The notes: generated by a model from the sequence alone, not told the origin. A stretch of 64,000 nucleotides of DNA from Nitrospirota bacterium (GCA_021789595.1 JAJYJJ010000003.1:62001-126000); one strand, 5' to 3'; shown: positions 9,356 to 63,692, counted from the first letter of the stretch. Numbers and translations: made by a program.

Positions 9356-10682
9356 AGAGATTTTCAATGCTGCCCTGAAGGCTGTTGATCCCTATAAGTC
9401 TGTGAGCCTTCACATAGAAAAGATAAAGCTCGCCTTTCGGAATGGCATATTCAAAAGACTGATCATTGTCGGATTTGGCAAGGCATCTTCGCTTATGGCA
9501 AAGGCAATTGAGGATGGACTTAGCGATTTAATCAGTGAGGGGATTGTGATTACGAAATATGGACACGCTTTACCTCATGACGCAAATCCCCCCATCCCCC
9601 CTTTAGTAAAGGGGGGATGGGGATTATTCGAAACATTTGAGGCAGGGCATCCTGTGCCAGATGAGAATGGATTGAAAGCTACAGCGGAGATTGTAAGACT
9701 CCTGAAGGATGCAGATGAAAATACACTCGTCGTCTGCCTTATCTCAGGCGGAGGCTCAGCCCTCCTCGTCTCACCATATGAAGGCATCACACTTATTGAA
9801 AAACAGGCGATTACAAATTTGCTTCTTAAATCAGGTGCTGATATAAATGAGCTAAACACAGTCAGAAAACATATCTCAAGAGTCAAAGGTGGCAGACTTG
9901 CAGAAATCGCATACCCTGCAAAGGTAATCTCCTTAATCCTTTCAGATGTCATCGGTGACAGGCTTGATGTTATTGCATCAGGGCCAACTTCTCCTGATAA
10001 AACAACATATAATGATGCATTAAGAGTTTTAGAAAAATACAGGCTTATGGATAAGTCTCCCAAAGGCATCATTGAAGTTCTCAAGAGAGGCAAAGAAGGT
10101 CTTATTCCTGAGACACCTAAAGAGGGAAATAAAATTTTTGAACATGTGGAAAACATTATCATTGGTAGTAACAGGATAGTCCTCAATGCTGCAAAACAAA
10201 CGGCAGAAGAACTGGGGTTTCAGGCAGAGATAATATCTTCTGAACTTACAGGCGAGGCAAGGGATATTGGGAAATGGATCGCGGAAAAGGCGAAGGAGAT
10301 AAAAGGGTCAAGTAGCAAGGGTCAAGAGGTCAATGATTCAAGATGTTTAATCTCAGGTGGAGAGACGACTGTCACTGTAAAGGGCAACGGTCTTGGCGGA
10401 AGGAACATGGAGCTTGCTCTGGCTTTTGCAATGGGAATAGAAGGTGTTGAAGGGATTACATTGCTCTCAGCAGGCACAGACGGTACAGATGGCCCCACAG
10501 ATGCAGCAGGTGCAATTGTTGATGGAGAAACAGTTAAGAAAGCAAAAACGATTGGGCTTAATCCTGAAGAATACCTGAACAATAATGATTCATATAATTT
10601 CTTCAAAGGGATTGACGGTCTGTTCATCACAGGCCCAACAGGAACAAATGTTATGGATATTCAGATAATGGTGATAGAATGA
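9309..10682 (+). CDS. glycerate 2-kinase, MOFRL family (true start may be TTG at 9333)
   Basis: ISGGGSALL, LNTVRKHISRVKGGRLAEIAYPAKVISLILSDVIGDRLDVIASGPTSPD, SGGETTVTVKGNGLGGRNMELALAFA. Confidence 0.9.
   Translation: MNSRPRLVLNTNIILEEIFNAALKAVDPYKSVSLHIEKIKLAFRNGIFKRLIIVGFGKASSLMAKAIEDGLSDLISEGIVITKYGHALPHDANPPIPPLVKGGWGLFETFEAGHPVPDENGLKATAEIVRLLKDADENTLVVCLISGGGSALLVSPYEGITLIEKQAITNLLLKSGADINELNTVRKHISRVKGGRLAEIAYPAKVISLILSDVIGDRLDVIASGPTSPDKTTYNDALRVLEKYRLMDKSPKGIIEVLKRGKEGLIPETPKEGNKIFEHVENIIIGSNRIVLNAAKQTAEELGFQAEIISSELTGEARDIGKWIAEKAKEIKGSSSKGQEVNDSRCLISGGETTVTVKGNGLGGRNMELALAFAMGIEGVEGITLLSAGTDGTDGPTDAAGAIVDGETVKKAKTIGLNPEEYLNNNDSYNFFKGIDGLFITGPTGTNVMDIQIMVIE
9585..9625. repeat. GC-rich palindromic coding insert, family A, inside glycerate kinase
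   Basis: AAATCCCCCCATCCCCCCTTTAGTAAAGGGGGGATGGGGATT; translated as NPPIPPLVKGGWGL. Confidence 0.85.
10305..10332 (+). repeat. degenerate heptad array (4 x 7 nt) inside glycerate kinase
   Basis: GGGTCAA GTAGCAA GGGTCAA GAGGTCA. Confidence 0.6.
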
Positions 10683-11539
10683 AAAAAACCATAATCTTCA
10701 CAGACCTTGATGGAACTCTTTTGGATTATTCAACCTACTCCTTTGAACCAGCCCTGCCTGCACTCCATTTACTGAAAGAAAAGGACATCCCCCTTATTAT
10801 CTGCTCAAGCAAGACAAAGAAAGAAATAGAGTATTACAGAGAAAAACTTGATAATCGCCATCCATTCATCTCTGAGAATGGGGGAGGAATATTTATACCA
10901 AAGGGCTATTTTGAGTTCAAAGTTCAAAATTCAGAGTTCACAGTAAAAGACACGGAAAAGAGGGTATTTTCAGGTGAAAATAATTATCATGTTATCAGAC
11001 TTGGTGCAAGATATTCTGATTTAAGGAAAGCAGTGAGAGAACTGCAATCAAAGGGTTTCAGGGTCAAAGGCTTTGGCGATATGACTGCAGAAGAACTTTC
11101 GGAGATAGCGAATATGAGCATTGAAGAGGCTGAAATGGCAAAAGAACGGGATTTTGACGAGCCGTTTATTTTTGAAGGGGATGAAACACAGATTCAAAAA
11201 CTTTCTGAAGCCATCGAATCAAAAGGTTTCAATTACACCCAGGGAAGGTTCTTCCATATCCTCGGTAACAGCGATAATGGAATGGCCGTATCTACTTTAA
11301 CTGAATTATACAAAAAGGGATTCGGCGAGGTTTTGACTGTTGCTGTTGGTGATAGCCCAAACGACATACCAATGCTTCAAAGGGTTGATTATCCAGTAAT
11401 TGTCCAGAAATCCGATGGCAGTTATGACTCACGAATAAATGTCCAGGACCTCATAATGGCAGAGGGCATCGGACCTGAGGGATGGGATAAGGCTGTTATA
11501 AAGCTAATAGGCCAAACTCCTACTTTTAAAGATCTTTAA
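10679..11539 (+). CDS. mannosyl-/glucosyl-3-phosphoglycerate phosphatase (HAD, MpgP family)
   Basis: IIFTDLDGTLLDYSTYSFEPALPAL, ICSSKTKKEIEYYREKL, HPFISENGGGIFIPKGYF, VAVGDSPNDIPML. Confidence 0.88.
   Translation: MKKTIIFTDLDGTLLDYSTYSFEPALPALHLLKEKDIPLIICSSKTKKEIEYYREKLDNRHPFISENGGGIFIPKGYFEFKVQNSEFTVKDTEKRVFSGENNYHVIRLGARYSDLRKAVRELQSKGFRVKGFGDMTAEELSEIANMSIEEAEMAKERDFDEPFIFEGDETQIQKLSEAIESKGFNYTQGRFFHILGNSDNGMAVSTLTELYKKGFGEVLTVAVGDSPNDIPMLQRVDYPVIVQKSDGSYDSRINVQDLIMAEGIGPEGWDKAVIKLIGQTPTFKDL
10913..10940 (+). repeat. heptad array (4 x 7 nt) inside mpgP-like gene
   Basis: GAGTTCA AAGTTCA AAATTCA GAGTTCA. Confidence 0.75.
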
Positions 11540-12127
11540 TCGATAATATGCCTCCCTCTCCCTTTCACCGATATACTGTGATATGGTCTTAATCTGGTGT
11601 TTCAAATCAGGCAAAACCCTCTCCTCTAAAACCCTTATCTTTCTTGTAGTTTTTAAAATCTCAGCCCCGAGTCTTTTTAACTTGCTCTCAAAGGTTGCGA
11701 TATTAAGCATTGACTCAAGAATCTTTTCGAAACTATAGATGCACTCCTCAAGGTGCGGTGTTGTTGAAAGATAGTCGTATCCTCTTTCATCAGTCCCTCT
11801 AACAGAAGACTCCTGTGCTATAACATCTCTGTATTTTAACCCCCATATGCTCCTTTCTGTTATCTCTACACCCATATCCCTTTTCGTTACGAGGGTTATT
11901 GATTCTATGTTATTCCGTCCCTCATGTCCGAGACTCAGCGCCAGCTCCTCAATGGCCTTTCCGTATGTATTCCTAATATCCTCCCTTGATCTGAGGAATG
12001 GCAATGTTGTACTGAGGAACTCCCTTATCAAAGCCTGTCTCCTCGCCTTGAGGATCCCTATGCTATTGGTCACTGACAGGGCATTGTCTTTAAGGAGTAA
12101 CAGATTTGTCCTTGTTGGGTGTATCAT
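11504..12127 (-). CDS. atpD: V/A-type ATP synthase subunit D
   Basis: [37 protein letters not shown]; operon position. Confidence 0.9.
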
Positions 12128-13497
12128 CTCACCTCAAGAGAAAATCTTTTCAGGATATTCAGACCTATATCAAGGGTCTCGTTTACATCCCTTCTTTCCA
12201 TCCTCTGATTCACAAATTCCCTTTCAAAGGCATCTGCAAAATCAAGCATCTGCCTGTCACTATCTGTCATCCCATCCCTGCCCACTATTGCCTCAAGCCT
12301 CCTGAGGTCCCTTCCCTTTGCATAGTATTTGTACAGATCGTTCGCTATCTTTCTATGATCGCCTCTTGTATGACCTTCACCAATGCCTCTCTGCATGAGC
12401 CTTGAGAGGCTTGGAAGCACATCCACCGGTGGGAATATCCCCTTCTGATGAAGTTCCCTGTTTAAGACAATCTGACCTTCTGTGATATAGCCAGTGAGGT
12501 CAGGGATGGGATGGGTAATGTCATCCTCTGGCATTGTCACAATAGGCAGCATGGTTACAGAACCAGGTATTCCCTTAATCCGTCCTGCCCGCTCATAGAT
12601 GGATGCAAGGTCAGAATACATATAACCAGGATAGCCACGCCTTCCAGGCAATTCCTCCCTTGCGGTGGATACCTCTCTCAGGGCATCACAGTAATTGGTC
12701 ATATCTGTTATTACCACAAGCACATCCATACCCTTTTCAAAGGCAAGGTATTCAGCAGAGGCAAGTGCAAACCTCGGTGCAAGGAGTCTTTCCATTACCG
12801 GCTCATCCGCCATATTCACAAAGGCAACAAATCCTCCCTTCATCTCCCCAAGGATATTCATATAGAAAGAATATTCATGATAGGTAAGCCCGATGGCAAC
12901 AAAGACCACAACAAAGTCCCCCTTCCCCCTATTTACGAATCCCCCCTCGCCCCCCTTTGCTAAAGGGAGGACGGGGGGGATTATTGCATTTTTCAGCATC
13001 CCTGCAGCCACTTCCTTTGAAGGAAGTCCTGCGCATGAAAATATTGGGAGCTTCTGCCCCTTTACAAGGGTATTGAGTCCGTCAATGACAGAAAAGCCTG
13101 TCTCGATAAATTCCTCAGGCCTTGCCCTTGCTGATGGATTTATGGGAAACCCTGTTATTGGTGACCACTTTTCAGGGATAAACATTGGCAATCCGTCTAT
13201 GGGTGCAAAAGAGCCATTGAAAATACGACCTATAATATCGGTGGAAAGGGGTGCCTTTTTGACTGTGTCAGCGAATACAATAGAAGTATTTTCTATATCA
13301 AGCCCGCGTGTCTCTCCGTAAACCTGTATCAGGACGGTTTTAGCATCTATCTTTAAGACCTCTCCGTCCATAATCCTGCCGTCAGGAGAATGAACCCTTA
13401 CTACCTCACCTATCCTTGCAGTAAAAACCTCATCTATAAATAATAGCGGGCCCCTGATGGAGGTGATGGTAGAGTATATATGCTCCGAGAGCCTCAT
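12124..13497 (-). CDS. atpB: V/A-type ATP synthase subunit B
   Basis: [70 protein letters not shown]. Confidence 0.94.
12938..12982. repeat. GC-rich palindromic coding insert, family A, inside V-ATPase subunit B
   Basis: AATCCCCCCTCGCCCCCCTTTGCTAAAGGGAGGACGGGGGGGATT; read on the minus strand as [15 protein letters not shown]. Confidence 0.85.
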
Positions 13498-15092: not shown

Positions 15093-15409
15093 AGATTCAG
15101 CCTCACATGATATCCAATTGCCCTTCTTATAAGCCTCAAGGCATAATCCTCCATTTCCACAACCGGCTTTTCCGGTGCAGGGAGGATAAGGAGGATTCCA
15201 TACCACCTTGCCTCCATCTCTCTCAGCCTTTCATCATTGAGACCCTTAATTAATCGTTCATCTATCACAACAACTCCGGTATCAGGTTCGCCCAATACCC
15301 TCTTAAGCGTATCCCCTGCTTCTTCCTGGCTAATGCTGTACTGCGTTACACCTGCAAGGCTGAATCCATATTCTGCATCATGAGGGGTTATGAAGACTAT
15401 TTTTTTCAT
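15089..15409 (-). CDS. atpF: V/A-type ATP synthase subunit F
   Basis: IVFITPHDAEYGFSLAGV...DTGVVVIDERLI...LLILPAP; operon position. Confidence 0.87.
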   Translation of the reverse strand: MKKIVFITPHDAEYGFSLAGVTQYSISQEEAGDTLKRVLGEPDTGVVVIDERLIKGLNDERLREMEARWYGILLILPAPEKPVVEMEDYALRLIRRAIGYHVRLNL

Positions 15410-16852: not shown

Positions 16853-16853
16853 A

Positions 16854-17072: not shown

Positions 17073-17141
17073 GACTCCTCCTTAATTTTATTAGAGCAGC
17101 AGACCAGCAGAACAGTAGTAAAAAGCTACTGCTCTGTTGCT

Positions 17142-19062: not shown

Positions 19063-19104
19063 CCCTATTCCTCTGTCCCTATTCCTCTGTCCCTATTCCT
19101 CTGG
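19063..19104. repeat. 14-bp tandem repeat x3 (six alternating heptads) over the 3' end of the subunit G/H gene
   Basis: CCCTATTCCTCTGT CCCTATTCCTCTGT CCCTATTCCTCTGG. Confidence 0.9.
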
Positions 19105-26479: not shown

Positions 26480-29248
26480 ATGAAACCAGAGGAAAAGGCA
26501 CGGCAGAGGATTGATCAGTCGCTGGAATCAGCCGGCTGGAGGGTTCAGGACCTTAGGGAACTAAATCTTGGAGACTCTCTTGGAATAGCCGTCCGTGAAT
26601 TTCCCCTTGAATCCGGCCCTGCCGATTATCTTCTTTTTGTGGATAGAAAGGCTGTCGGGGTTGTAGAGGCAAAACCAGAAGGGACTACCTTAAGCGGAGT
26701 TTCCGATCAAACCGAAAAATATTTAGCAGCCCTTCCCGATAATCTCCCCCATGTCCAAGAGCCTCTTCCCTTTGCTTATGAGAGTACAGGTATAGAGACC
26801 TATTTCAGGGATTTAAGAGATCCAGACCCACGCTCCAGAAGAATATTTGCATTTCACAGGCCTGAAACACTCCTTGAATGGCTTTCACAGGGCAACACCC
26901 TGAGAGCAAGGCTTACGAACATACCTGTTTTGATAACTGAAGGATTAAGGGATTGTCAAATCGAAGCCATAGAAAATCTCGAAAGATCCTTTGCAGAGGC
27001 GAGGCCGAGGGCCCTCATCCAGATGGCCTCAGGGGGTGGAAAGACTTATACTGCTGTAAGCTTCATTTACCGATTAATAAAGTTTGCAAATGCAAATAGG
27101 GTTCTCTTTTTAGTTGATAGAAACAATCTTGGCCGTCAGACAAGAAGGGAATTTCAACAGTATGTAACGCCTGATGATGGCAGAAAATTTACAGAACTTT
27201 ATAATGTCCAGCACCTTACTTCAAATACCCTTGACCCTGTCAGTCGGGTCTGCATTACTACTATTCAAAGGCTTTATTCCATGCTAAAGGGAGAGCCTGA
27301 ATTTGATTCTGAACTTGAAGAAAGATCCCTCTTTGATATATCACCTTTAGAAGAAAAGCCAAAAGAGGTTTCCTATAATCCCCAAATCTCTATAGAGACC
27401 TTTGATTTTATTATTACTGATGAATGCCACCGTTCAATCTATAACTTATGGAGACAGGTTCTTGAGTATTTTGATGCCTTTATTATAGGACTTACTGCAA
27501 CACCCTCAAAACAGACCCTCGGATTTTTCAATCAGAACCTTGTCATGGAATACAGCCACGAGCGGGCTGTCGCAGATGGAGTTAATGTAGGTTATGAGGT
27601 CTACAGAATTCAGACCGACATCACAGAAAAAGGCAGTAAAGTCGAGGCAGGCTATTACATAGACAGGCGTGATAAGCTCACAAGAAAGACAAGATGGGAA
27701 CAACTGGATGAAGATATTGAATATGCTCCTGCCCGGTTAGACATGGATGTAGTTTCACCCGACCAGATAAGGACGGTTATCAAAACATTCAAAGAAAATC
27801 TCTTTGCCGAGATATTTCCGGGCAGAAAAGAGGTTCCCAAGACCCTGATCTTTGCCAAGGATGATTCCCATGCTGAAGACATTGTCCATATCGTGCGTGA
27901 GGAATTCGGCAAGGGGAATGAGTTCTGCAAGAAGATAACCTATAAAACAATGGGCGAGAAGCCTGAGGATTTGATCGCAAGTTTCCGAAATTCCTATAAC
28001 CCTCGTATTGCAGTGACAGTGGATATGATCTCAACAGGAACTGATATAAGACCCTTAGAGTGTCTAATATTTATGCGCGATGTTAAATCAAGGGTCTATT
28101 TTGAGCAGATGAAGGGAAGAGGGACAAGGGTTATTTCTCAAACGGATTTTAAGGCGGTCACTCCGGATGCTTTAAATAAGACCCATTTTGTGATTGTGGA
28201 TGCAGTGGGTGTATGCGAGAACGATAAGACCGACTCTCGCCCTCTGGAACATAAGAAGACCGTACCTTTTGATAAGCTTATTATGTCTGTTGCCCTTGGA
28301 ATCAGGGATGAAGATACGCTGACTTCTCTGGCTGGAAGGCTTGCAAGACTGGATAGGGAGATAAACGAAAAGGATAGAAAAGAGATCGAGAATATCTGTA
28401 AGGGCGAATGGCCATTCGCCCTTACTTTAAAACAGATCATCACTAACCTCCTTGATTCCATGGATCCTGATAAAAAATTAGAGAGGGCAAAGAAGATATT
28501 TAAGACAGAAACACCAACTGAGGAGCAGATTAATAGGGCTTCCGAGGAGCTTATCAAGATTGCCTGCGAACCCTTTGATAATCCGGAGTTAAGGAATAAA
28601 ATTATAGAGATAAAGAAAAGAGACGAGCAGATAATAGATACGGTAAGCAAGGATGCGATAATCTTTGCGGGCTTTGATGAGAAGGCAAAAGAGAAGGCAC
28701 GCACAATTATCGATACCTTCAAAAGGTTCATTGATGAAAATAAGGATGAGCTCACAGCTTTGCAGATTATATACAGCAAACCCTATAGCAGGCGTCACAT
28801 CACATACGAAGAAATCAAGCAACTTTCTGAGGCTATAGAAAAGCCTCCCTATCGTCTAACGCCAGAGATAGTATGGCAGGCATATGAGCAACTTGAGAAA
28901 TCAAAGGTAAAAGGTGCAGGCCCGCAGAAGCTTTTAACCGACATTATATCGTTGATACGCTTTGCGATTGGTAAAAGTGATGTCCTTGAGCCATTTTTTG
29001 ATATTGTAGACCGCAGATTTGATGACTGGCTTAAACAGCAAGAAAAACTTGGTAAAAAATTTACTACCGAGCAGAGAGAATGGCTTATGATGATAAAAGA
29101 CCACATCTCAACATCGCTCAGTATCGGCATGTCCGATTTCGAACTCGCTCCATTTTACGAAAAAGGGGGGCCAGTTAAATTTCATAATATTTTCGGTGAA
29201 ACAGCGGATAAGATTTTGGAAGAATTGAACGAGGTGCTGGCAGCGTGA
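26480..29248 (+). CDS. hsdR: type I restriction endonuclease subunit R
   Basis: VVEAKPEGTTLSGVSDQTEKYL (nuclease motif), QMASGGGKTYTAVSFIYRL, DECHRSIYNLWRQVLEYFDAFIIGLTATPSKQT. Confidence 0.95.
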   Translation: MKPEEKARQRIDQSLESAGWRVQDLRELNLGDSLGIAVREFPLESGPADYLLFVDRKAVGVVEAKPEGTTLSGVSDQTEKYLAALPDNLPHVQEPLPFAYESTGIETYFRDLRDPDPRSRRIFAFHRPETLLEWLSQGNTLRARLTNIPVLITEGLRDCQIEAIENLERSFAEARPRALIQMASGGGKTYTAVSFIYRLIKFANANRVLFLVDRNNLGRQTRREFQQYVTPDDGRKFTELYNVQHLTSNTLDPVSRVCITTIQRLYSMLKGEPEFDSELEERSLFDISPLEEKPKEVSYNPQISIETFDFIITDECHRSIYNLWRQVLEYFDAFIIGLTATPSKQTLGFFNQNLVMEYSHERAVADGVNVGYEVYRIQTDITEKGSKVEAGYYIDRRDKLTRKTRWEQLDEDIEYAPARLDMDVVSPDQIRTVIKTFKENLFAEIFPGRKEVPKTLIFAKDDSHAEDIVHIVREEFGKGNEFCKKITYKTMGEKPEDLIASFRNSYNPRIAVTVDMISTGTDIRPLECLIFMRDVKSRVYFEQMKGRGTRVISQTDFKAVTPDALNKTHFVIVDAVGVCENDKTDSRPLEHKKTVPFDKLIMSVALGIRDEDTLTSLAGRLARLDREINEKDRKEIENICKGEWPFALTLKQIITNLLDSMDPDKKLERAKKIFKTETPTEEQINRASEELIKIACEPFDNPELRNKIIEIKKRDEQIIDTVSKDAIIFAGFDEKAKEKARTIIDTFKRFIDENKDELTALQIIYSKPYSRRHITYEEIKQLSEAIEKPPYRLTPEIVWQAYEQLEKSKVKGAGPQKLLTDIISLIRFAIGKSDVLEPFFDIVDRRFDDWLKQQEKLGKKFTTEQREWLMMIKDHISTSLSIGMSDFELAPFYEKGGPVKFHNIFGETADKILEELNEVLAA

Positions 29249-29838
29249 GATACGATAAAGAGAAACATCACCGCCGATCGATAAGATTGAAGAATTACGA
29301 TTATTCGCAGGCAGGGGCATATTTTGTGACTATTTGTACACAAGGTAGGGAATGTCTGTTTGGTGAAATCAAGAACAATCAGATGCACCTGAATGAAGCC
29401 GGTGGTATGGGCGAGAAGGTCTGGAATGAATTACCGGAGAAATACCCGGGTGTTGAAATTGATGAACTCATCGTAATGCCAAACCATATTCATGGAATTA
29501 TCATTTTGTCTGTAGGGGCAGGCCCCTGTGCCTGCCCTGAAACTGAAACAAATCAATCATTAAGAAAAGGGCAACCACAGGGGGTTGCCCCTACGCGGTT
29601 GTCGTTGCCTGATGTAGTACATCGTTATAAATCATTTACCACGTCGCAATATCGAACAGGGGTAGAACAATTCAATTGGTTATCATTCCCCGGTAAATTA
29701 TGGCAACGCAATTATTACGAACACATCATCAGGAACGAAGATGATTTAAACAGCATCCGTGAATACATCAGATATAACCCCTTGAAATGGGATGAAGATG
29801 AAGAAAATCCGGATAATAAACGTAGGGGTAATTCATGA
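29245..29838 (+). mobile_element. REP-associated tyrosine transposase (RAYT/IS200-like Y1, HUH) gene, GTG start
   Basis: RSIRLKNYDYSQAGAYFVTICTQGRECLFGEI...IVMPNHIHGIIIL...LWQRNYYEHIIRNEDDLNSIREYIRYNP. Confidence 0.92.
29512..29594. repeat. inverted REP pair (BIME-like) embedded in frame in the RAYT gene
   Basis: GTAG-GGGCAGGC-CCCTGT-GCCTGCCC-T (29512-29538) and its inverted relative A-GGGCAACC-ACAGGG-GGTTGCCC-CTAC (29568-29594). Confidence 0.85.
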
Positions 29839-34757: not shown

Positions 34758-34811
34758 TAAAGGAAAGGGGTCAAAGTAAAGGAAAGGGAAAGGAAAGGAA
34801 AGGGAAAGGGG
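34758..34811. repeat. purine-only GGAAAGG-rich tract immediately left of the second IS200-like element
   Basis: AAAGGAAAGGGGTCAAAGTAAAGGAAAGGGAAAGGAAAGGAAAGGGAAAGGGG. Confidence 0.7.
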
Positions 34812-35731
34812 TCAGGTCTTTAATATTGACATTATTTATTGGATATGATATTAATACTTCATGGCAAGGCCTTTAAGGATAGAATATGATGGTGCATTAT
34901 ACCATGTAACATCAAGAGGTAATGAGAGGAAGCTCATATACAAGAATGACAAAGACCGCAGGGCTTTTCTTGACATACTTCACAGGACAAATGAAAGGTA
35001 TAACTGGATATGTCATGCATATTGCCTGATGGACAACCACTATCATATAGTTATTGAAACACTGGATGGGAATCTCTCAAAGGGTATGAGGCAGTTAAAT
35101 GGTGTATATACGCAGGTTTTTAACAAGAAATATCATAGGGTTGGCCATATATTCCAAGGCAGATACAAGGCAATACTTATTCAGAAGGAGAGCCATCTTC
35201 TTGAGGTTTGTAGATATGTAATATTGAACCCTGTGAGGGCAAAGGCAGTAAAAACCCCTGTGGAATGGAAATGGAGCAGTCACCGCGCTACTGTGGGTAT
35301 AGAAGAATCGCATCCCTGCCTTACAACAGACTGGATACTGGGGCAATTTGGGACAAAGAGGGGAATAGCAAAAAAAAGATACAGCGAATTTGTAAAAGCT
35401 GGGATAACAGAAAAAACTATCTGGACAGAAGTTAAAGGACAGATTATACTTGGAGATGACGATTTTGTTGAGAGATTCAGCAAATATTTAAAAGGACATG
35501 AAGACATAACAGAGATACCCAGGAGACAGAGATACATCAACAGGCCAAGTCTTGACAGACTATTCAAGGTAAAGATAAAGGACAAACACAAAAGGGACAT
35601 GGGGATAAAAGAAGCGGTAGAGGGATACGGCTACAGTCAGAAAGAGGTTGCCGATTATCTGGGGCTACACTATTCAACGATTAGCAGGCTAATAAAGGAC
35701 AATGAGACATCAAAAAGCAAGACCTGACCCC
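34808..35731 (+). mobile_element. IS200/RAYT-like element with 13-bp terminal inverted repeats GGGGTCAGGTCTT / AAGACCTGACCCC
   Basis: left end 34808-34820, right end 35719-35731, transposase between. Confidence 0.75.
34861..35727 (+). CDS. Y1 (IS200/REP-associated) transposase with C-terminal HTH extension
   Basis: MARPLRIEYDGALYHVTSRGNERKLIYKNDKDR...CLMDNHYHIVIET...GHIFQGRYKAILI...YVILNPVRAKAV...YGYSQKEVADYLGLHYSTISRLIK. Confidence 0.92.
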   Translation: MARPLRIEYDGALYHVTSRGNERKLIYKNDKDRRAFLDILHRTNERYNWICHAYCLMDNHYHIVIETLDGNLSKGMRQLNGVYTQVFNKKYHRVGHIFQGRYKAILIQKESHLLEVCRYVILNPVRAKAVKTPVEWKWSSHRATVGIEESHPCLTTDWILGQFGTKRGIAKKRYSEFVKAGITEKTIWTEVKGQIILGDDDFVERFSKYLKGHEDITEIPRRQRYINRPSLDRLFKVKIKDKHKRDMGIKEAVEGYGYSQKEVADYLGLHYSTISRLIKDNETSKSKT

Positions 35732-37818: not shown

Positions 37819-40263
37819 TTGCAGGAGAGATATAATCCACAGACAGTGGAGGAGAAATGGCAGAGGCGCTGGGCTGAGAAGTCAGTTTTCAGGCTCAGGA
37901 TAGAGAAGGACAGGCCAAAGTTTTACTGCCTTGAGATGTTCCCCTATCCATCAGGAAAGATACATATGGGGCATGTGAGAAACTATGCCATTGGTGATGT
38001 CATTGCAAGATACAAACGCATGTGCGGTTACAATGTGCTTCATCCGATGGGATGGGATGCATTCGGCCTGCCTGCTGAGAATGCAGCAATAAAGCATAAT
38101 GTCCATCCTTCAAGATGGACATATGAAAACATAGCCTACATGAAAAAACAGTTAACCAGGCTGGGCCTCAGCTATGACTGGCAGAGGGAGGTTACAACCT
38201 GCGAACCAGAATATTATAAATGGAACCAGTGGTTTTTCCTGAAGATGTATGAAAGGGGCCTTGCCTATAGGAAGGCATCCTCTGTCAACTGGTGCCCTTC
38301 ATGTCAGACAGTCCTTGCAAACGAACAGGTCATAGACGGTCTTTGCTGGAGATGTGACAGCGTGGTAACGCTGAAGGAGCTTGAGCAGTGGTTTTTAAGG
38401 ATAACCGCCTATGCAGAGGAACTGCTTGAGGACTGCGACAGGCTTCATGGATGGCCTGAGAGGGTCATCACCATGCAAAAAAACTGGATCGGCAAAAGCC
38501 AAGGGGTCGAGGTAGACTTCAGGATAGATGGGATGCAGGAGGGGATAAGGGTATTTACAACAAGGCAGGATACACTTTATGGGGCCACATTTGTAAGCCT
38601 TGCTGCAGCACATCCCCTTGCAAAGATACTTGTAAAGGACAGCAAATCCCTTGATGCCTTAAAGGCACGATATGACGAGGTAGAGGAAAAGGAAGGGGTC
38701 TTTACAGGCCATTACGCAATAAATCCACTTAGCGGCGATAGGATCCCCATATGGGTTGCAAACTTTGTCCTTATGGAATACGGCACAGGTGCAATAATGG
38801 CAGTGCCTGCGCATGACCAGAGGGACTTTGATTTTGCAAAGAAGTATGGCCTTCCGATAAAGCCTGTGATAGTGCCTGAAAAGAAGCCAGAAGCCAGAAG
38901 CCAGAGGTCAGAAGATCTGGTGTTAGAAGGGGCGTACGAAGAAGAGGGCATTCTCATTAACTCAGGACAGTTTAGCGGTTTAAAAAGCCCTAATGCCAAG
39001 AGGGAGATTGCCAGATTTATTGAAGAAAAGGGGCTCGGCAAGAGGACCATAAATTATAAGCTCCGTGACTGGGGCATATCAAGGCAGAGATACTGGGGCA
39101 CTCCTATCCCTATCCTCTACTGTGATAGCTGCGGGATTGTTACTGTTGCAGAGGATGATCTGCCTGTTATACTGCCTGAAGATGTGAGGTTTACAGGCAG
39201 GGGCGGCTCTCCGCTTTCTGAGTCTGACAGATTCCTGAAAACCAAATGTCCTCTCTGCGCCGGAGATGCAAGGCGTGAGACAGACACCATGGACACATTT
39301 GTGGATTCCTCGTGGTACTTTCTCAGGTATTGCTCTGAGAAAGATAAAACCCGGCCGTTTGATAAGAACGACGCTGGATACTGGATGCCTGTTGACCAGT
39401 ATATAGGAGGGATAGAGCACGCTGTGCTGCATCTCCTGTATTCGAGATTCTTTACAAAGGTACTGAGGGACCTCGGGCTTATAGAGGTTGCCGAACCCTT
39501 TAAAAACCTCCTGACACAGGGCATGGTTATTAAGGATGGTGCAAAGATGTCAAAGTCAAAGGGCAATGTCGTTGACCCTGATTATCTCATAGAGACCTAT
39601 GGCGCAGATACATCAAGGCTTTTCTGCCTATTCGCATCACCGCCTGAGAAGGATCTTGACTGGTCTGACAAGGGGGTTGAAGGCGCATACAGGTTTTTGA
39701 ATAAAGTATGGGGAATAGTTCAGAAGTACAGAGGTCAGAGGTCAGAGGTCAGAAGTCAGAAAATACAAGGAACAGCCTCGCCATTGTTAAGAAAGACCCA
39801 TCAGACCATAAAGAGGGTAACAGAGGATATGGAAAAAGACTTTCACTTTAACACTGCCATAGCCTCACTCATGGAGCTTGTAAATGAGATAGCCTCATTC
39901 AATCCGCAGGGGGAAGAGGACTTTTATACGCTCCGGTTTGCCATTGAGACAGCCGTAATCCTGCTTTCTCCATTTGCTCCGCATATAGCAGATGAACTGT
40001 GGGAGGCCATGGGCCACAGCCAGAGCATCCTTGAGGTGTCATGGCCCAGGTGGGACATGGATGCCATAAAGGCGGATGAAATAGAGCTTGTAATCCAGAT
40101 AAATGGAAAACTGAGAAACAGGGTCATGATACCTGCTGACCTTTCAGAAGAGGATATAAGGCAGAGGGCACTTGCTGATGATAAAGTAAGACAATACATC
40201 AATGGAAAAGAGCTAAAGAAGATAATCGTGGTAAGAGGCAGGTTGGTGAACATTGTCATCTAA
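37819..40263 (+). CDS. leuS: leucyl-tRNA synthetase (probable TTG start after AGGAGG; ORF-track start 37744)
   Basis: [61 protein letters not shown]. Confidence 0.94.
38887..38914 (+). repeat. heptad array (4 x 7 nt) inside leuS
   Basis: CCAGAAG CCAGAAG CCAGAGG TCAGAAG. Confidence 0.85.
39728..39762 (+). repeat. heptad array (5 x 7 nt) inside leuS
   Basis: ACAGAGG TCAGAGG TCAGAGG TCAGAAG TCAGAAA. Confidence 0.88.
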
Positions 40264-44183: not shown

Positions 44184-44421
44184 TAGCGCATGGCAAGATG
44201 TTGAGAAAAAAAATAGTCATTGACTTTTCCATGGTTCTTGCTGTAAAAATTATCATAGTTTCAGGTGCAGAGAAGCTTAATAGGGAATCTCGTTAAAATC
44301 GAGAGCGGTCCCGCCGCTGTAACTGGGGACGAAACCACACTCCAAAACCACTGGGGCTTAGAAGTCCTGGGAAGGCGTGGGAGGTAGAGAGATCCAGGAG
44401 CCAGAAGACCTGCCTGGAAAG

Positions 44422-44442
44422 GACAGAACACAGAAGTCAGAA
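44422..44442 (+). repeat. heptad array (3 x 7 nt) within the riboswitch leader
   Basis: GACAGAA CACAGAA GTCAGAA. Confidence 0.6.
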
Positions 44443-44446
44443 TACA

Positions 44447-44490
44447 ACCCCCCTCCCTCTCGAAGGGGGAGGGCAAGGGAGAGGGTGAAA
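44447..44490. repeat. GC-rich palindromic element (family B) inserted in the riboswitch leader
   Basis: ACCCCCCTCCCTCTCGAAGGGGGAGGGCAAGGGAGAGGGTGA. Confidence 0.75.
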
Positions 44491-44560
44491 ATCTGGGCTC
44501 TGTGCTCTGAATAGAGCCTTCTCGCGGACAGAAGGCGGGGATGAAGTAAAACAGGGTGCA

Positions 44561-44594
44561 ATCCCCAGGGCATATTGCCCTGGGGATTTTTTAT
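44561..44594 (+). terminator. riboswitch-controlled intrinsic terminator
   Basis: ATCCCCAGGGCA TAT TGCCCTGGGGAT TTTTTTATT. Confidence 0.9.
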
Positions 44595-44609
44595 TATATG
44601 GAGGGAAAG

Positions 44610-45911
44610 ATGACACAGATTGAAAGGGCAGTAAAAGGCGAGGTAACAGAGGAGACAAGCAGGGTTGCAAGGGATGAGGGGCCTACTCCTGAGGTTGTTA
44701 GAAGTCGTGTAGCATCAGGACAGATAGTGATTCCTTCTAACAAAAACAGGGAAGCAAAGGTCATCGGCATTGGCAAGGGGTTGAGGACAAAGGTAAATGC
44801 AAGCATAGGGACCTCAACAGAGATAGCGGACACTGCAATGGAGATAGAGAAGGCAAAGATAGCCGAGGCATATGGGGCCGACACGCTGATGGATTTAAGC
44901 GTTGGTGGCGACATCGCCAGGATAAGGAAAGAGGTGATGAATGCAGTAACGATTCCTGTGGGAACTGTGCCCCTTTATGAGGCATTTGCCATAGCCATTG
45001 AGAAATACGGGGCAGCGATAAATATGCCAGAAGAACTGCTGTTCGATGTGATGGAGAGGCAATGCGATGAAGGGGTCTCTTTTATGGCCATACACTGCGG
45101 CATTAACAGGATGACCATTGAACGGTTAAGAAAACAGGGTTACAGATACGGCGGCCTTGTATCAAAGGGCGGCTCATACCTGACGGCATGGATGCTGCAT
45201 AATGACAGGGAAAATCCGCTCTATGAGAGATTTGACCGTGTTGTTGAGATACTAAAAAAACACGATGTTGTGCTGAGCCTTGGTAACGGCTTCCGCGCAG
45301 GAGCAATTCACGATTCAACCGATAGGGTTCAGATCCAGGAGCTTATCATAAACTGTGAGCTTGCAGAGACAGGACGCAGGATGGGATGCCAGATGATGGT
45401 CGAAGGCCCAGGGCACATCCCCATTGATGAGATAGAGGCAAACATAATCCTTGAAAAGAGGATGAGTGGAGAGGCCCCATTCTATATGCTCGGCCCAATA
45501 ACAACAGATATTGCCCCTGGCTACGACCATGTTACTGCTGCCATTGGAGCATCCCTTTCATCTGCTTATGGCGCTGATTTTATCTGCTATGTTACCCCTT
45601 CTGAGCATCTCGGCCTTCCATATCCAGAGGATGTAAAAGAGGGGGTAATCACAGCACGGATCGCTGCACATATCGGTGATATGGTAAAGAATAAAGACCG
45701 TGACAGGGACAGGGAGATGTCAAAGGCAAGGCGGGATCTGAACTGGAAACAGCAATTCGAAATTGCCCTTACAAGTGAAAGGGCACATTATATCAGGAAT
45801 AAACGCCAGAGCCCATCAGAGGAGCACTGCACCATGTGCGGTGAGTTCTGCGCATCACAGATACTCAAGGGCTTTTTTGATAAGGAGATGCAAGACTATG
45901 GAAAGAAATAG
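44610..45911 (+). CDS. bzaF: ThiC-family radical SAM enzyme; likely 5-hydroxybenzimidazole synthase (BzaF) rather than thiamine HMP-P synthase
   Basis: MTQIERAVKGEVTEETSRVARDEGPTPEVVRSRVASGQIVIPSN..., C-terminal CTMCGEFCA cluster motif, cobalamin riboswitch upstream; start after GGAGGG. Confidence 0.72.
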   Translation: MTQIERAVKGEVTEETSRVARDEGPTPEVVRSRVASGQIVIPSNKNREAKVIGIGKGLRTKVNASIGTSTEIADTAMEIEKAKIAEAYGADTLMDLSVGGDIARIRKEVMNAVTIPVGTVPLYEAFAIAIEKYGAAINMPEELLFDVMERQCDEGVSFMAIHCGINRMTIERLRKQGYRYGGLVSKGGSYLTAWMLHNDRENPLYERFDRVVEILKKHDVVLSLGNGFRAGAIHDSTDRVQIQELIINCELAETGRRMGCQMMVEGPGHIPIDEIEANIILEKRMSGEAPFYMLGPITTDIAPGYDHVTAAIGASLSSAYGADFICYVTPSEHLGLPYPEDVKEGVITARIAAHIGDMVKNKDRDRDREMSKARRDLNWKQQFEIALTSERAHYIRNKRQSPSEEHCTMCGEFCASQILKGFFDKEMQDYGKK

Positions 45912-48334: not shown

Positions 48335-51091
48335 TCAAATCCTCTCAATCCTAACAGCACAGACCTTCAGTTCAGGTATCTTGCAATAGGGATCAAGGGC
48401 ATCGTTTGTCAGCACATTGGCTGCAGCCTCTCTAAAATGAAATGGTATAAATACCATGCCTCTGCCTGCCCTGTCTGTCAGCATTGCCTTTATCTCAATG
48501 CTTCCCCTCCTTGAGGACACCCTTATCCGTTCAGAATCCTTTATCCCAATGGCCATGGCATCTTCTGGATTTATCTCTACATATGCCTCTGGAATAACCT
48601 TATTTAATGCCTCTGACCTCCTTGTCATCGTCCCTGTGTGATAATGGAAAAGAACCCTGCCTGTTGACAGCACATATGGATATTCCCTGTCAGGCAGTTC
48701 CTTTGAAGGAATGGCTGTAACCGGAGTAAATGCACCCTTGCCCCTTGGGAAGCCACCCTTAAAGAGATACGGTGTTCCAGGGTGGTCTTTTGTCGGGCAC
48801 GGCCATTGAAGCCCTGTTTTTTCAAGTCGTCTATAATCCATTCCAGCCATTGCAGGCCATAGGCTGCCTATTTCATGCAATACATCTTCTGGCGTATTAT
48901 AGTGCATTAGATAACCCATCCTGTTGGAAAGTTCTGTTATTATCCTGAGGTCATCCCTTGCCTCACCTGGTGGATTTACAGCCTTTCCCACCCGCTGAAC
49001 CTTCCTCTCTGTGTTTGTGAAGGTTCCATCCTTCTCTGCAAAGGATGCAGCAGGCAAAACCACATCCGCAAGCTCTGCTGTCTCTGTCATAAATATATCC
49101 TGGACAACCAAAAAGTCAAGACCCTTCAACGCCTTTATTGTATGGTTCATATACGGGTCGCTCATAACAGGATTTTCACCCATAATATACATTGCCTTAA
49201 TCCTTCCCTCAATGGCTGCCTCTGTCATCTCTGTTGCTGTAAGGCCAGGCCTGTCAGAGAGCTTCCTTTCCCACGCCCTCTCAAACTTGTCCTTTATGGC
49301 AGGTATGTGAACCTTCTGATAGCCAGGATAAACATCAGGGATGCATCCCATGTCTGTTGCACCCTGGACATTATTCTGTCCCCTTAATGGATTAACTCCC
49401 GAGTTTTCCTTCCCGAGGTTTCCTGTAAGCAGTGCAAGGTTTGCAATAGCAAAGACATTGTTCGTGCCCATGGAGTGCTGTGTTATCCCCATTGTGTAAT
49501 AGATGCCTGCCTTCTCTGCACTGGCATAGAGCCTTGCTGCCCTGACTATATCATCCTTTGGAACACCGCTCAGCTTTTCGGCAAATTCAGGGGTATATTC
49601 ATTCAGGGTTTTTCGAAACTCATCGTAGCCCTCTGTCCATTCCTCTATAAACCTCTTATCTTCCAGTCCTTCAGCTAAAATGACATGCATCATAGCATTG
49701 AGGAGGGCGATGTCTGTGCCAGGTCTCTGCCTCAGCCACAGATGCGCAAACCGCACAAGGTCTATCCTCCTGGGGTCTGCAACAATGAGCCTTGCCCCCT
49801 TCCTTACTGCCTTTTTCATCTTTAGTCCAATGATTGGATGCGTCTCTGTTGTGTTAGAGCCTATTACAAAAAGCACATCATTGTCTTCTATCTCCGTGAT
49901 AGAATTTGTCATAGCGCCTGAACCAAAGACAGTGGCCAGACCGGCCACTGTTGCGCTGTGTCAATACCTTGCACAATGGTCTATATTATTTGTTCCGATA
50001 CCAGCCCTCATGAACTTCTGGAAGAGATAGTTCTCTTCGTTTGTGCATCTCGCAGAGGAAAGACCTGCTATGGCATCAGGGCCGTATTTATCCTTAAGTG
50101 TCTTCAGCCTCTTTGCGATATAATCAACTGCCTCATCCCATGATGCCTCACGGAAGAGTGACGAGTAACGAGTAACGAGTAACGAGTTATTAATCCCCCC
50201 TCGCCCCCCTTTAACAAAGGGGGGTAGGGGGGGATTTGATTGATCTTTTGGAGCTATCCTGATAAGAGGTTTTGTGAGCCTGTCAGGGCTGTTTATAAAA
50301 CTGTAACTGAATCTACCCTTTACGCACAGCCAGCCCTCGTTAAGGGTATCTTCCCTTGAAGTTATCTTTATTACCTCGTTTCTTCTTACATGAAGGGTGA
50401 GGCTGCAGCCGCATCCACAATACGGGCATGTCGTTTCAATCTCCTTTATATCCTTCTGCCTGCCCTTTTGTTTCCACATCTTGCCTGTCAGCGCACCTGT
50501 CGGACAGACAGCAACACACTGACCGCAGAACTCACAATTAAGGTCTTTCCCAAATGGGGTGCATATCTTTGAACTGAAACCCCGATAGCCAAAATCTATT
50601 GCGCCTACACCTTCAACCTCATCGCATACCTTTACGCATCTGCCGCACATTATGCATTTTTCAAGGTCTCTTTCGATAAAGGGATTTCCATCCCTTTTCG
50701 TGTAGATCCTTCTTTCCCCTTCAAACCTGTTTTCCCTTATGCCGTAAAAATATGCAAGCTCCTGTAAAGTGCAGTCGCCTGCCTTTTCGCATACCATACA
50801 GTCGTTTGGATGGTCTGAAAGGATGAGTTCAAGTACTGTCTTTCTTAAGTCTTCAATATATGGGTTTGATGTTGTGACCTCCATCCCATCGCTTACAGGT
50901 GTTGTGCAGGATGTTACAGGTCTTGGGATCCCCTTTATCTCAACTATGCATAGTCTGCATCCCCCAAAAGGTGTGAGTTTTGGGTGATGACACAGTGTCG
51001 GTATTGGAATATCCAGCATCTTGGCTGCATCCAAAACCGTTGTCCCCTCTTGAACCTCTATTGTCTTTCCATCTATGGTTACCTTGAACAT
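48335..51091 (-). CDS. fdhA: NAD-dependent formate dehydrogenase alpha subunit, selenoprotein; UGA at 49961-49963 read as Sec; joins ORF-track entries 49961..51124 and 48335..49948
   Basis: [31 protein letters not shown] across the UGA; NuoG-like 2Fe-2S/4Fe-4S N-terminus; molybdopterin domain; SECIS-like hairpin. Confidence 0.93.
49929..49951 (-). promoter_or_regulatory. bacterial SECIS element
   Basis: minus strand: TGA-CACAGCGCA-ACAGTGGCC-GGTCT-GGCCACTGT; 9-bp stem, GGUCU apical loop 18 nt after the UGA. Confidence 0.92.
50160..50187 (+). repeat. heptad array (4 x 7 nt) inside fdhA, antisense to the gene
   Basis: GACGAGT AACGAGT AACGAGT AACGAGT. Confidence 0.9.
50192..50236. repeat. GC-rich palindromic coding insert, family A, inside fdhA
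   Basis: AATCCCCCCTCGCCCCCCTTTAACAAAGGGGGGTAGGGGGGGATT; read as NPPLPPFVKGGRGGI. Confidence 0.9.
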
Positions 51092-53630: not shown

Positions 53631-53655
53631 TATATGTTATGAATTCGGGGTTGGG

Positions 53656-53713
53656 AGTTCGGAGACAAAGATGAAAACAACTATTCTGAACTAAGAACTA
53701 ATAACTCCGAACT
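53656..53713. repeat. intergenic heptad-like repeat with AGTTCGGAG...CTCCGAACT inverted ends, between two tRNAs
   Basis: AGTTCGGAG at 53656-53664 and CTCCGAACT at 53705-53713; CTGAACTAAGAACTAATAACTCCGAACT. Confidence 0.6.
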
Positions 53714-55043: not shown

Positions 55044-55099
55044 GCCATTTGAACCTTTCTAAGGTTGAATTATATAGTTTTTTATGGTAATAATAGGCT

Positions 55100-56834: not shown

Positions 56835-56863
56835 AAAATTAATGCCAAGGAAGGACCACAGCT

Positions 56864-57311: not shown

Positions 57312-57329
57312 AAGGAGACTGAGGGATTA

Positions 57330-58538: not shown

Positions 58539-58544
58539 GGAGGG

Positions 58545-60247: not shown

Positions 60248-61455
60248 TTTCGCAGTATTCAGGCATATCCCCAAAGGGCGATTTAATACTCCTACAGAGG
60301 ATCGGGGAGAAACTGAAAGGCAGGTCTTTCCTTCACATAAACTCCACCCGTGCAGGCGGGGGAGTTGCCGAGATACTGCACAGGATGATTCCCATACTCA
60401 AAGACCTCGGCATAGATGCAAGATGGGAGGTCATAGAAGGGGATGAAAGATTCTTTGATATAACAAAGAAAATCCACAATTCCCTTCAGGGAAATTTTGA
60501 AAATATTACCGAAGACATGTGGCAGTATCATTACGAGGTTAACAGGAGAAATGCCGAAAGGCTCAATCTTGATGCGGATGCGGTTTTAATACATGACCCT
60601 CAGCCAGCCCCTCTGATTGAATTCAGAAAATCGGGTAAATGGATATGGAGATGCCACATAGATGTATCAAATCCCATAAAAGAGGTCTGTGATTATCTCA
60701 GGCGATACTGTGAGAGATATGATTCAGCTATCTTTTCAATTGCAAAATTCGCAAGGGCAATGGGTATAGACGAGTTCATTATCCCGCCTTCCATAGACCC
60801 TATCAGTGAGAAGAACAGAGAGTTAACAGATGAAGAGATACAGGAAACTCTGAATAAATTCCAGATAACAAAAGACAGACCTATAATACTTCAGGTCTCC
60901 CGTTTTGATAGATTTAAAGATCCCATAGGCGTAATAAAGGCTTACAGGATTGTTAAAAAATATAATGATTGCATTCTGGTTCTTGCAGGAAGCCCTGCAA
61001 CAGATGACCCTGAAGGCGAAGTGGTCTTAAATGAGGTAAAGGAGTATGCAGCCGATGACCCTGATATACATGTCCTTTTATTACCACCTTTCAGCGATAA
61101 AGATATAAATGCCCTTCAGAGAAGAGCCACAGTTATTATTCAAAAATCTATAAGAGAAGGGTTTGGTCTTACAGTCTCTGAATCCCTGTGGAAAGGAAAG
61201 CCAGTAATAGGCGGCGCCACAGGCGGGATTCCGCTCCAGATAGTGCATGGCGTAACAGGATTCCTTGTCCACTCGGTGGAGGGCGCTGCATTCAGGGTAA
61301 GACAACTCCTGAATAATCCGGAGATGACCAAGAGAATGGGTGAAAAGGGCAGGGAGCATGTAAGGAAGAATTTTTTAATAACAAGGCAGATAAGGGATTA
61401 TCTGTCCGTATGGTATGCGATGGAGAATAAAGGGGAAAGCGTTCTGGAGTTGTAA
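60244..61455 (+). CDS. TreT-like glycosyltransferase (trehalose synthase family, GT4)
   Basis: SFLHINSTRAGGGVAEILHRMIPILKDLGIDARWEVIEGDERFFDITKKIHNSLQG...QKSIREGFGLTVSESLWKGKPVIGG. Confidence 0.88.
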   Translation: MISQYSGISPKGDLILLQRIGEKLKGRSFLHINSTRAGGGVAEILHRMIPILKDLGIDARWEVIEGDERFFDITKKIHNSLQGNFENITEDMWQYHYEVNRRNAERLNLDADAVLIHDPQPAPLIEFRKSGKWIWRCHIDVSNPIKEVCDYLRRYCERYDSAIFSIAKFARAMGIDEFIIPPSIDPISEKNRELTDEEIQETLNKFQITKDRPIILQVSRFDRFKDPIGVIKAYRIVKKYNDCILVLAGSPATDDPEGEVVLNEVKEYAADDPDIHVLLLPPFSDKDINALQRRATVIIQKSIREGFGLTVSESLWKGKPVIGGATGGIPLQIVHGVTGFLVHSVEGAAFRVRQLLNNPEMTKRMGEKGREHVRKNFLITRQIRDYLSVWYAMENKGESVLEL

Positions 61456-61460
61456 AAGAT

Positions 61461-63692
61461 ATGTTAAAGGACTTTATAGAGGAAAACTTTTCGGATAAGG
61501 TTCTGATAATAGTCTCCAACAGAGAGCCTTACATCCATAAAAAGACTGGCTTGAGCATCAGGGTCGAAAGACCTGCTGGCGGTTTAATATCGGCCATGGA
61601 TGATGTCTTGAGGGCAACAGGTGGCATATGGGTGGCATGGGGTAGCGGAAGTGGGGACAGGGATGTCGTTGACAGCAAAAACCTTATGCTGGTGCCGCCG
61701 GGGAATCCTTCTTATATGCTGAAGAGGGTCTGGCTCAGTCCTAAAGAGGTGGATAATTACTACCATGGATATTCAAATCAGGTATTATGGCCACTCTGCC
61801 ATATAACCCTTGACAGGGTATATTTCAGAAAAAGGTTCTGGGAGGATTATAGAAAGGTAAACGGGGCCTTTGCCGATGCTGTCATTGAAGAAACAGGTAA
61901 TGACTCAATTGTATGGGTTCATGATTACCATTTATGTCTTGTGCCAGGAATCTTAAGAGGTGAGAAGCCTGAGTTAACCATAGCGCATTTCTGGCATATT
62001 CCATGGCCTGACTGGAGCGTCTTCAGGGTCTGCCCGCAGTCAAAAGAAATCCTTGAAGGATTGCTTGGAAATGACCTGATAGGCTTTCAGATACCCCTCT
62101 TTGTGAAAAACTTTTTAGACTGTGTGAAAGAATGCCTCGATGCCGATATTGATTACCACCAATCAACGATTACCTACAGAGGACATACCACAAGGCTGAA
62201 GGCATTCCCCATAAGCATAGATTTTGATAAGTTCAATTCAATGGCCTCATCGCAGAGAACGATAAGGATGATGAAAAACATAAAAGAAAAATACAAAATC
62301 ACACAGGACTATATCGGAATCGGAGTTGACAGACTTGAGTATACAAAGGCACTGATAAAGAGGCTTCAGGCCATAGACTTATTCTTTGATAGATATGAGA
62401 GATTCAGGAAAAAATTCACCTTCATCCAGATCACTGTTCCTACAAGGATAAGGGAGCCGTATATAAGTTATAAAAAGACTGTTGAAGAACTTGTTACAAA
62501 GATCAACGAAAAATACTCACTGGGCAACTGGAAACCAATTATTTACATTGATACAAAGATTGAGCATGAAGACCTTGTTTCCTATTACAGAATGGCTGAT
62601 GTCGCCATAATAAGCTCTGTTTACGACGGGATGAACCTCGTAGCAAAGGAGTATGCGGCATCACAGGTTGATGAGAATGGTGTTTTGATTCTCAGCGAAC
62701 TTGCAGGGGCAGCAGATGAACTGGAAGGAGCAATACTCGTGAATCCCTATGACATTGAAGGCTTCTCGGATGACATAAGAAAGGCATTGAGGATGCCGCA
62801 AAAGGAAAAGGCAAACAGAATGGCTGTATTAAGGAGACAGGTAAAGGGAAGCGATATTTATAAATGGATTTCTGACATCCTGCACGAGGTGATAAAGATA
62901 TCATCCGTAAAACAGAAGAAGTGCTGTTATCTCTTTGACCATACTGATGAAATAAAAGAGAGGCTATCAGACAAAAGAATTTTTTTATTCCTTGATTACG
63001 ATGGAACACTTACCCCCATTGTTGAATCCCCTGACAGGGCCTTTATATCGGAAGATATGCGTTCTCTCATAGTCAGGTTAAAAGAATATATACCCATTGC
63101 TGTAATAACTGGCAGAAGCCTTCAGGACATAAAAGGGAGAGTGGAGATGGAAGATATCATCTATGCTGGAAATCATGGAGCAGAGATATGGGATAGCAGC
63201 AAAATAGTCAGGAGTCAAGAGTCAGGAGTCGAGAGTAATTTGTTAAAGGAATTTCTTGATAAATTGAAAAATAAATTGTCTCACATCGAGGGCCTCTTAA
63301 TTGAGGATAAAGGTCTCACTGCCAGCATACATTTCAGGATGGTAAAGGTTAAGTATTTAAGTGAGGTGTTTGATATACTCTGGAGGATAGCAAAGGAATA
63401 CGAGGATTCATTCAAAATTACTTCAGGCAAGAAGGTCTTTGAAATAAGACCTCTCAATGCATGGAACAAGGGTGATGTAATATCATGGATAATCAGGAAC
63501 TTAGGTAATGGAAGGATTCCGATTTATGTAGGTGACGATACCACTGATGAGGATGCCTTCAGGGCAGTAAAGGGAAAGGGCATAAGTATCTGCATCGGTG
63601 GTAGTCCCGAAGCTGATTATTATTTAAAAAGGCAGGAAGAGGTGGAGATGTTTCTCAAAGAACTTATAAAATTATCAGAAAAGAATGGATAG
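61461..63692 (+). CDS. fused trehalose-6-phosphate synthase (OtsA) / trehalose-phosphatase (OtsB)
   Basis: IVSNREPYIHKKTG...WVHDYHLCLVPGILR...GVDRLEYTKALIKRL; then FLFLDYDGTLTPIVESPDRA...ITGRSLQDIKGR...YVGDDTTDEDAF. Confidence 0.92.
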   Translation: MLKDFIEENFSDKVLIIVSNREPYIHKKTGLSIRVERPAGGLISAMDDVLRATGGIWVAWGSGSGDRDVVDSKNLMLVPPGNPSYMLKRVWLSPKEVDNYYHGYSNQVLWPLCHITLDRVYFRKRFWEDYRKVNGAFADAVIEETGNDSIVWVHDYHLCLVPGILRGEKPELTIAHFWHIPWPDWSVFRVCPQSKEILEGLLGNDLIGFQIPLFVKNFLDCVKECLDADIDYHQSTITYRGHTTRLKAFPISIDFDKFNSMASSQRTIRMMKNIKEKYKITQDYIGIGVDRLEYTKALIKRLQAIDLFFDRYERFRKKFTFIQITVPTRIREPYISYKKTVEELVTKINEKYSLGNWKPIIYIDTKIEHEDLVSYYRMADVAIISSVYDGMNLVAKEYAASQVDENGVLILSELAGAADELEGAILVNPYDIEGFSDDIRKALRMPQKEKANRMAVLRRQVKGSDIYKWISDILHEVIKISSVKQKKCCYLFDHTDEIKERLSDKRIFLFLDYDGTLTPIVESPDRAFISEDMRSLIVRLKEYIPIAVITGRSLQDIKGRVEMEDIIYAGNHGAEIWDSSKIVRSQESGVESNLLKEFLDKLKNKLSHIEGLLIEDKGLTASIHFRMVKVKYLSEVFDILWRIAKEYEDSFKITSGKKVFEIRPLNAWNKGDVISWIIRNLGNGRIPIYVGDDTTDEDAFRAVKGKGISICIGGSPEADYYLKRQEEVEMFLKELIKLSEKNG
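63206..63233 (+). repeat. heptad array (4 x 7 nt) inside the otsA-otsB fusion
   Basis: AGTCAGG AGTCAAG AGTCAGG AGTCGAG. Confidence 0.85.

Follow-up and report, generated by a model that had tools for sequence, protein, structure and literature searches.

The stretch of DNA analysed here (64,000 nucleotides, referred to below as the window) is part of a 2.23-Mb, 36-contig genome, and the best named relatives of its LeuS come from Nitrospirota/Thermodesulfovibrionia assemblies. A first-pass annotation had listed nine short arrays of degenerate heptads in unrelated genes of the window. By tandem-repeat and autocorrelation scans, six of the nine are solid, two are weak, and the one at 19063 is a 14-bp repeat. 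The arrays and associated features, in window coordinates, are:

9584..9626, plus strand: C-rich/G-rich palindrome in the glycerate kinase gene, encoding NPPIPPLVKGGWG
10303..10333, plus strand: weak purine-rich heptad array (AAGGGTC) in the glycerate kinase gene; 70% unit match in TRF
10914..10944, plus strand: heptad array (AGTTCAA) in an mpgP-like HAD phosphatase gene, found by tandem-repeat and autocorrelation scans
19063..19103, minus strand: 14-bp tandem repeat, 2.9 copies of the minus-strand unit AGAGGAATAGGGAC
38882..38914, plus strand: heptad array (AGAAGCC/AGAGGTC) in the first hypervariable loop of leuS (residues ~378-392)
39720..39760, plus strand: heptad array (CAGAGGT/CAGAAGT) in the second hypervariable loop of leuS
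44246-44431: cobalamin riboswitch
44422..44443, plus strand: weak purine arm of three units (ACAGAAC..), overlapping the 3' end of the riboswitch
44448..44485, plus strand: C-rich/G-rich palindrome nested between the arms at 44422-44443 and 44493-44514, seen in the sequence and in the fold
44493..44514, plus strand: pyrimidine arm CTGGGCTCTGTGCTCTGAATAG, facing 44422-44443; the predicted fold pairs both arms
50153..50187, plus strand: heptad array (GAGTAAC) inside fdhA, a minus-strand gene
50195..50233, plus strand: C-rich/G-rich palindrome encoding NPPLPPFVKGGRGG, adjoining the inner side of the fdhA array
53644..53664, plus strand: purine arm in the spacer between tRNA-Lys and tRNA-Glu, with a facing mate
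53685..53713, plus strand: pyrimidine arm of the tRNA-spacer pair, from the fold and the mate match
63206..63236, plus strand: heptad array (AGTCAGG/AGTCAAG) in the OtsB half of otsA-otsB

The tRNA-spacer array counts as solid only when its two facing arms are taken together (53644-53664 and 53685-53713; p = 0.015 for the mate match). The repeat at 19063..19103 includes the stop codon of a presumed V-ATPase-type gene on the minus strand (identified from the earlier annotation and the neighbourhood), and its unit length in the tandem-repeat scans rules it out as a heptad array.

We aligned the products of the array-bearing genes with homologues to see whether the arrays are insertions. The glycerate kinase array accounts for ~3 residues more than in the nearest solved homologue, the mpgP product has ~8 additional residues, leuS site 1 (38882..38914) carries seven additional residues relative to 1h3n, and in fdhA the array and palindrome together form an in-frame insertion of ~28 residues relative to the solved homologue. 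In contrast, leuS site 2 (39720..39760) adds no length relative to homologues, and the otsB product can be aligned gap-free with homologues in which the repeat is absent. This mixed result indicates that the arrays insert in some cases and elsewhere replace poorly conserved sequence. In same-order relatives the leuS loops hold other repeat-derived peptides (for example TRDERQETNSETRDKRQETS.., TSYELRVTSK.. or SLVTRHSSL) or none. The mpgP array has a near-identical counterpart in the G003 orthologue, and the otsB array is found in the G003 orthologue as well; as both are common to G000 and G003, some arrays are old.

The excess of period 7 claimed by the first-pass annotation is real, although its list of sites and its motif needed correction. 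In the window, a 21-base test found 5 period-7 segments versus 0.0±0.1 in 50 dinucleotide shuffles, and a 14-base test found 5 versus 0.3 (maximum 1), ruling out a chance origin. Within the window's own genome, period 7 (and 14) also came first in a 314-kb sample that included the window and was not picked by pattern matches. Across 1.42 Mb from 22 Nitrospirota genomes, 174 segments had period 7; period 8 gave 38 and most of the remaining periods 2-14 (21 and 14 are multiples of 7). This sample was partly picked for pattern matches, so that its densities are not averages, while the comparison between periods is much less affected. A search of 246 Nitrospirota genomes with the pattern RAGTNAN x 3 gave 0 to 146 matches per genome, mostly far above the reversed-pattern control (146 v 22 in G003, 113 v 11 in G227, 114 v 15 in G005). 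Counts differed strongly within genera, and the pattern was nearly absent from two large groups (g26 and f28). Beyond Nitrospirota, matches were obtained in L092, a genome from Acidobacteriota (57 v 1), and in a few further genomes. The arrays belong to a large family of small elements across many Nitrospirota genomes.

A typical array is ~30 bp long and has ~4-5 units, mostly of 7 and sometimes of 8 nt; as 139 of the 225 arrays analysed in related genomes have four or five units, the earlier statement that most have four is roughly true. Over these 225 arrays the consensus unit is AGTNARR (score 2.67 v 1.89±0.04 for a position-permuted null), to which the previously proposed RRRGTCA came close. 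Only 114 distinct consensus units were present where 181-185 are expected, and the top ten units made up 36% of arrays against an expected 12-13%. The unit sequences are therefore a restricted repertoire, common to several families and also seen in Acidobacteriota. The purine strand is A-rich (A 0.45, G 0.25), and its leading units contain no GGG.

The arrays are often arms of facing pairs, in which a purine arm is followed by a short spacer (median 15 bp) and a pyrimidine arm. Of 186 purine arrays, 73 had a pyrimidine mate downstream within 90 bp and 1 had such a mate upstream, so only ~40% of arrays have a detectable mate. Purine-first outnumbered reverse order by 50:1 where the arms were at most 40 bp apart and by 11:1 at distances of 41-100 bp, and the ratio was 5:6 for distances of 101-300 bp; this farthest class, being near random, serves as a built-in control. 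The rule is the same whichever strand is read. It also holds for period-8 arrays (24:1), and in the Acidobacteriota genome four of four close opposite-strand pairs, read by hand from the match list, were purine-first. Octamer arrays at L124:14888-14970, L123:16371-16468 and L126:11318-11393, all in the window's genome, include some purine-first facing arrangements.

This polarity bears on the simplest account, namely that the arrays are independent heptamer microsatellites without higher structure, made by ordinary polymerase slippage, to which a length of ~7 nt is suited. In most bacterial genomes, heptamers are described as outnumbering the other repeats with units of 5-11 nt, with polymerase contacts as a proposed cause (as related in PMC4679880 and PMC4692102), and the distribution of the arrays is patchy even inside genera, as slippage would have it. 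However, it predicts neither the purine-first pairing at short distance, nor octamers under the identical rule, nor a common unit repertoire. Heptamer microsatellites should be independent of orientation, and the 73:1 polarity of mates within 90 bp strongly disfavours them as a full account; we consider slippage on its own quite unlikely.

Could one arm be templated on the other, by template switching in a fold-back (quasi-palindrome) intermediate? The arms of strong pairs are complementary above random, and paired arms resemble each other somewhat more than they resemble the remaining arms of their genome (mean rank 0.36 for all pairs, 0.17 for strong pairs), so the two arms are not fully independent. 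However, the order of unit variants in the right arm matches that in the left no better than when shuffled (p = 0.97), and several pairs have unrelated units in their two arms (for example L235:6848-6911 and L241:4663-4752). The unmirrored variants and unrelated units show that the arms were not simply copied from one another, and fold-back copying is very unlikely as their origin. Mate complementarity within the window's genome alone was mostly negative, the sample there being too small, and was settled by the larger set. An apparent arm-specific unit asymmetry among copies of a G134 element was set aside because the copies had been selected by similarity to a single query.

The arrays turn over quickly. 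Their main location is the gap between cistrons, followed by protein loops that tolerate them. We compared five orthologous sites in sister species of genus g30 whose flanks are 85-95% identical, and found that one intercistronic gap may be empty in some species and hold other units in others. Site D is empty in three species and carries GTAGACA, AGTGTCA or GATACAG types in five, site A is empty in four species, and at site C nearly all of six species have different elements. In G269, an array stands in place of a gene's last codons. No target duplication was evident at the five g30 sites, which is weak evidence as the flanks are also altered. A search for near-identical copies of one G134 element found none: the best paralogue was 87% identical to the query and all-against-all identity was at most 73%, the paralogues having arms of 4-5 units in common, but not the spacer and flanks. 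It had been proposed earlier that the period is kept while units differ between loci, which is true even between sister species at one site, and that the arrays are generated in place, which the absence of near-identical paralogues fits.

The location of the arrays could point to selected regulatory or structural sites, be they RNA hairpins between cistrons or paired binding sites of a global regulator, a proposal made for the G. metallireducens elements by the authors of that study (PMC2700814). By our own gene calls, 52% of arrays are intergenic, versus 12.7% of the sequence (87% is coding), and 89 of the 110 classed intergenic arrays lie in co-directional gaps; some pairs fold well (z of -3.3 and -3.7). 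On the other hand, the diversity of units is too great for a single binding site, sister species have a given site empty or different, the unit order is unmirrored between arms, and the remaining folds are unremarkable. G-U pairs on the sense strand were not above antisense wobble in co-directional gaps (53 v 69), and single in-gene arrays gave no fold at all, so selection for an RNA hairpin was rejected. A regulatory origin of the family thus seems doubtful to us.

We also looked for a gene associated with the arrays, since a co-occurring polymerase, reverse transcriptase or HUH enzyme had been suggested; no such partner was established. The reverse transcriptase domain RVT_1 was found in 9 of 23 array-bearing and 6 of 25 array-free genomes (p = 0.35), and this lack of association led us to reject a diversity-generating or retron-like process. 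Mutagenic retrohoming of the adenine type was rejected as well, because differences between adjacent units are not limited to one base type. Y1_Tnp genes were more numerous in array-bearing than in array-free genomes (3.3 v 1.1, p = 0.002; rho = 0.50; uncorrected for phylogeny), and the window's genome has 8 matches, two of them within the window. The arrays might accordingly be non-autonomous elements of the REPIN/MITE kind, moved in trans by IS200-like Y1 transposases (RAYTs), which would also suit the inverted arms and variable spacer. However, the array-rich genomes G227, G056, G262, G236 and G156, as well as G016, have no Y1_Tnp match, so Y1_Tnp is associated yet dispensable and was rejected as a required partner. 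In addition, the units are very diverse, the one G134 element searched lacks near-identical copies and, more weakly, no target duplication is evident at empty and filled sites. Mobilization of this kind is in our opinion rather unlikely. SbcD scored above the curated cut-off in 5 of 48 Nitrospirota genomes, array-rich and array-poor alike, and its loss was therefore rejected as a switch; its rarity is possibly permissive for the arrays, not decisive, and may make palindromes easier to keep.

The two IS200-like (Y1_Tnp) RAYT-type genes of the window lie at 34861-35727 and 29245-29838. The former has a C-terminal helix-turn-helix, and an AAAGG-rich tandem array (34759-34810) is located directly upstream of it.

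With arms that are not copies of one another and no wobble excess, what is left is growth of each arm from a common unit style. We tentatively favour, while holding it somewhat short of probable, an origin by in-place synthesis. Arrays would arise at sites of replication or repair, where short units would be synthesized again and again by slippage, enriching the growing strand in purines; the arms would lengthen separately, and their 3' ends would then be joined at a gap or break, after which selection would discard gene-breaking arrays. Such growth and joining of 3' ends would put the purine arm first in each pair, leave the unit order of the arms unmirrored and involve neither a target duplication nor a master copy, and selection against gene-breaking arrays would leave open-frame units in loops as the coding survivors. 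A cellular function is not required under this reading. Against in-place growth, a restricted and widely common unit repertoire is not predicted by pure local slippage, and neither a growth intermediate nor an enzyme was seen. The partial resemblance of paired arms, the many arrays in which no mate was detected and the age of the mpgP and otsB arrays also weigh against it. It is conceivable, if distinctly unlikely, that an activity specialized for the task or recruited from another one extends free 3' DNA ends by purine-rich units of 7-8 nt before these ends are joined, making the arrays end-healing scars; if so, bacterial end-healing would leave purine-first paired arrays across several phyla. 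The first-pass interpretation is thus partly supported, in the in-place origin and the constancy of the period, and not in its view that the class has no named mechanism.

Indeed, heptamer excess, four-unit preference and paired heptanucleotide arrays have all been published. Bacterial 7-nt repeats are over-represented and taxonomically patchy, with slippage proposed as the cause (Mrazek 2007, as cited in PMC4679880 and PMC4692102). The present arrays share the 7-nt excess over chance and over other unit lengths, but their units are degenerate and they form facing pairs in a fixed purine-first order. The G. metallireducens report (PMC2700814) describes 49 elements of four GGACCGG heptanucleotide units, located inside genes as well as between them, a class 1 of paired octanucleotides, and a class 3 of mostly five tandem heptanucleotides (MTYCTGA), with eight reported pairs and with sites drawn on opposite strands (Additional file 9); paired sites are read there as regulator binding sites or RNA elements. 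Class 3 resembles the Nitrospirota arrays in being paired on opposite strands at variable distance, and the reverse complement of its unit, TCAGRAK, corresponds to the GAAGTCA unit of leuS in the window. However, the Geobacter families have one consensus each, whereas the Nitrospirota arrays, some of which (leuS, window) do match MTYCTGA, have 114 distinct units in 225 arrays, and the main text of PMC2700814 gives neither a polarity rule nor site turnover.

The GGGNATC repeats of Xanthomonas and Nostoc are likewise degenerate heptads that prefer four units, show no gene-function bias and vary in length and sequence between close relatives (PMC4692102), all of which is found here. They differ in being of a G-quadruplex type with G-tracts, in a consensus unlike AGTNARR and in having few inverted pairs reported in Nostoc (PMC4692102). 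Four G-tracts of at least three are not found in our arrays, and we rejected G-quadruplex heptads as their identity. TAACTGA repeats of marine Beggiatoaceae are mostly intergenic heptads, some in ORFs, and their reverse complement rotates to AGTTATC, which fits AGTNA; unlike the present arrays, they are a single conserved unit in direct orientation upstream of starts, with one inverted case in 170 (PMC4679880). REPINs, as outlined in PMC3116915, are dispersed and have two inverted short arms with a spacer, and RAYT-like Y1_Tnp genes are present here too, but the Nitrospirota arms are arrays of units without common sequence and several rich genomes lack Y1_Tnp.

In the open literature, subscription papers and supplements aside, we found no description of the purine-first rule, the common 7/8-nt repertoire or the within-genus site turnover. 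With the polarity rule, what had been a loosely defined excess of heptamers becomes a structural class open to testing. The rule unites repeats that had been reported one by one from Geobacter, Beggiatoaceae and Nitrospirota, and it yields a discriminating prediction on the way in which DNA ends or intermediates of replication give rise to new sequence in bacteria. Within a genus, such arrays reshape the gaps between cistrons as well as the variable loops of essential proteins, LeuRS among them.

Besides the facing pairs and the octamers, the first-pass annotation missed the nested C-rich palindromes. Those at 9584-9626, 44448-44485 and 50195-50233 correspond to NPPLPPFVKGG-like peptides, and such palindromes are often inside or abutting heptad pairs. 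Of 203 arrays, 10 had a C-rich palindrome with this peptide at a distance of at most 60 bp, where 2.3 would be expected, and the palindrome was almost always located on the array's inner side. At one site compared between G266 and G268, the same arms occur in both and the palindrome is present in one and absent from the other. The 9584..9626 palindrome is a 13-residue insertion in the solved-structure alignment of glycerate kinase, and relatives of this enzyme have different inserts in the same loop. A separate dispersed palindromic family, GTCATTCCGCACTTGATGCGGAATCCAG..., occurs in genus g30 at L259:3516-3596 and at related sites; each genome has tens of copies that are 80-90% identical. Finally, the cobalamin riboswitch of the window precedes a radical SAM gene of the ThiC family at 44556-45911 (together 44246-45911), an arrangement suggestive of a BzaF-type enzyme for the lower ligand of cobalamin.
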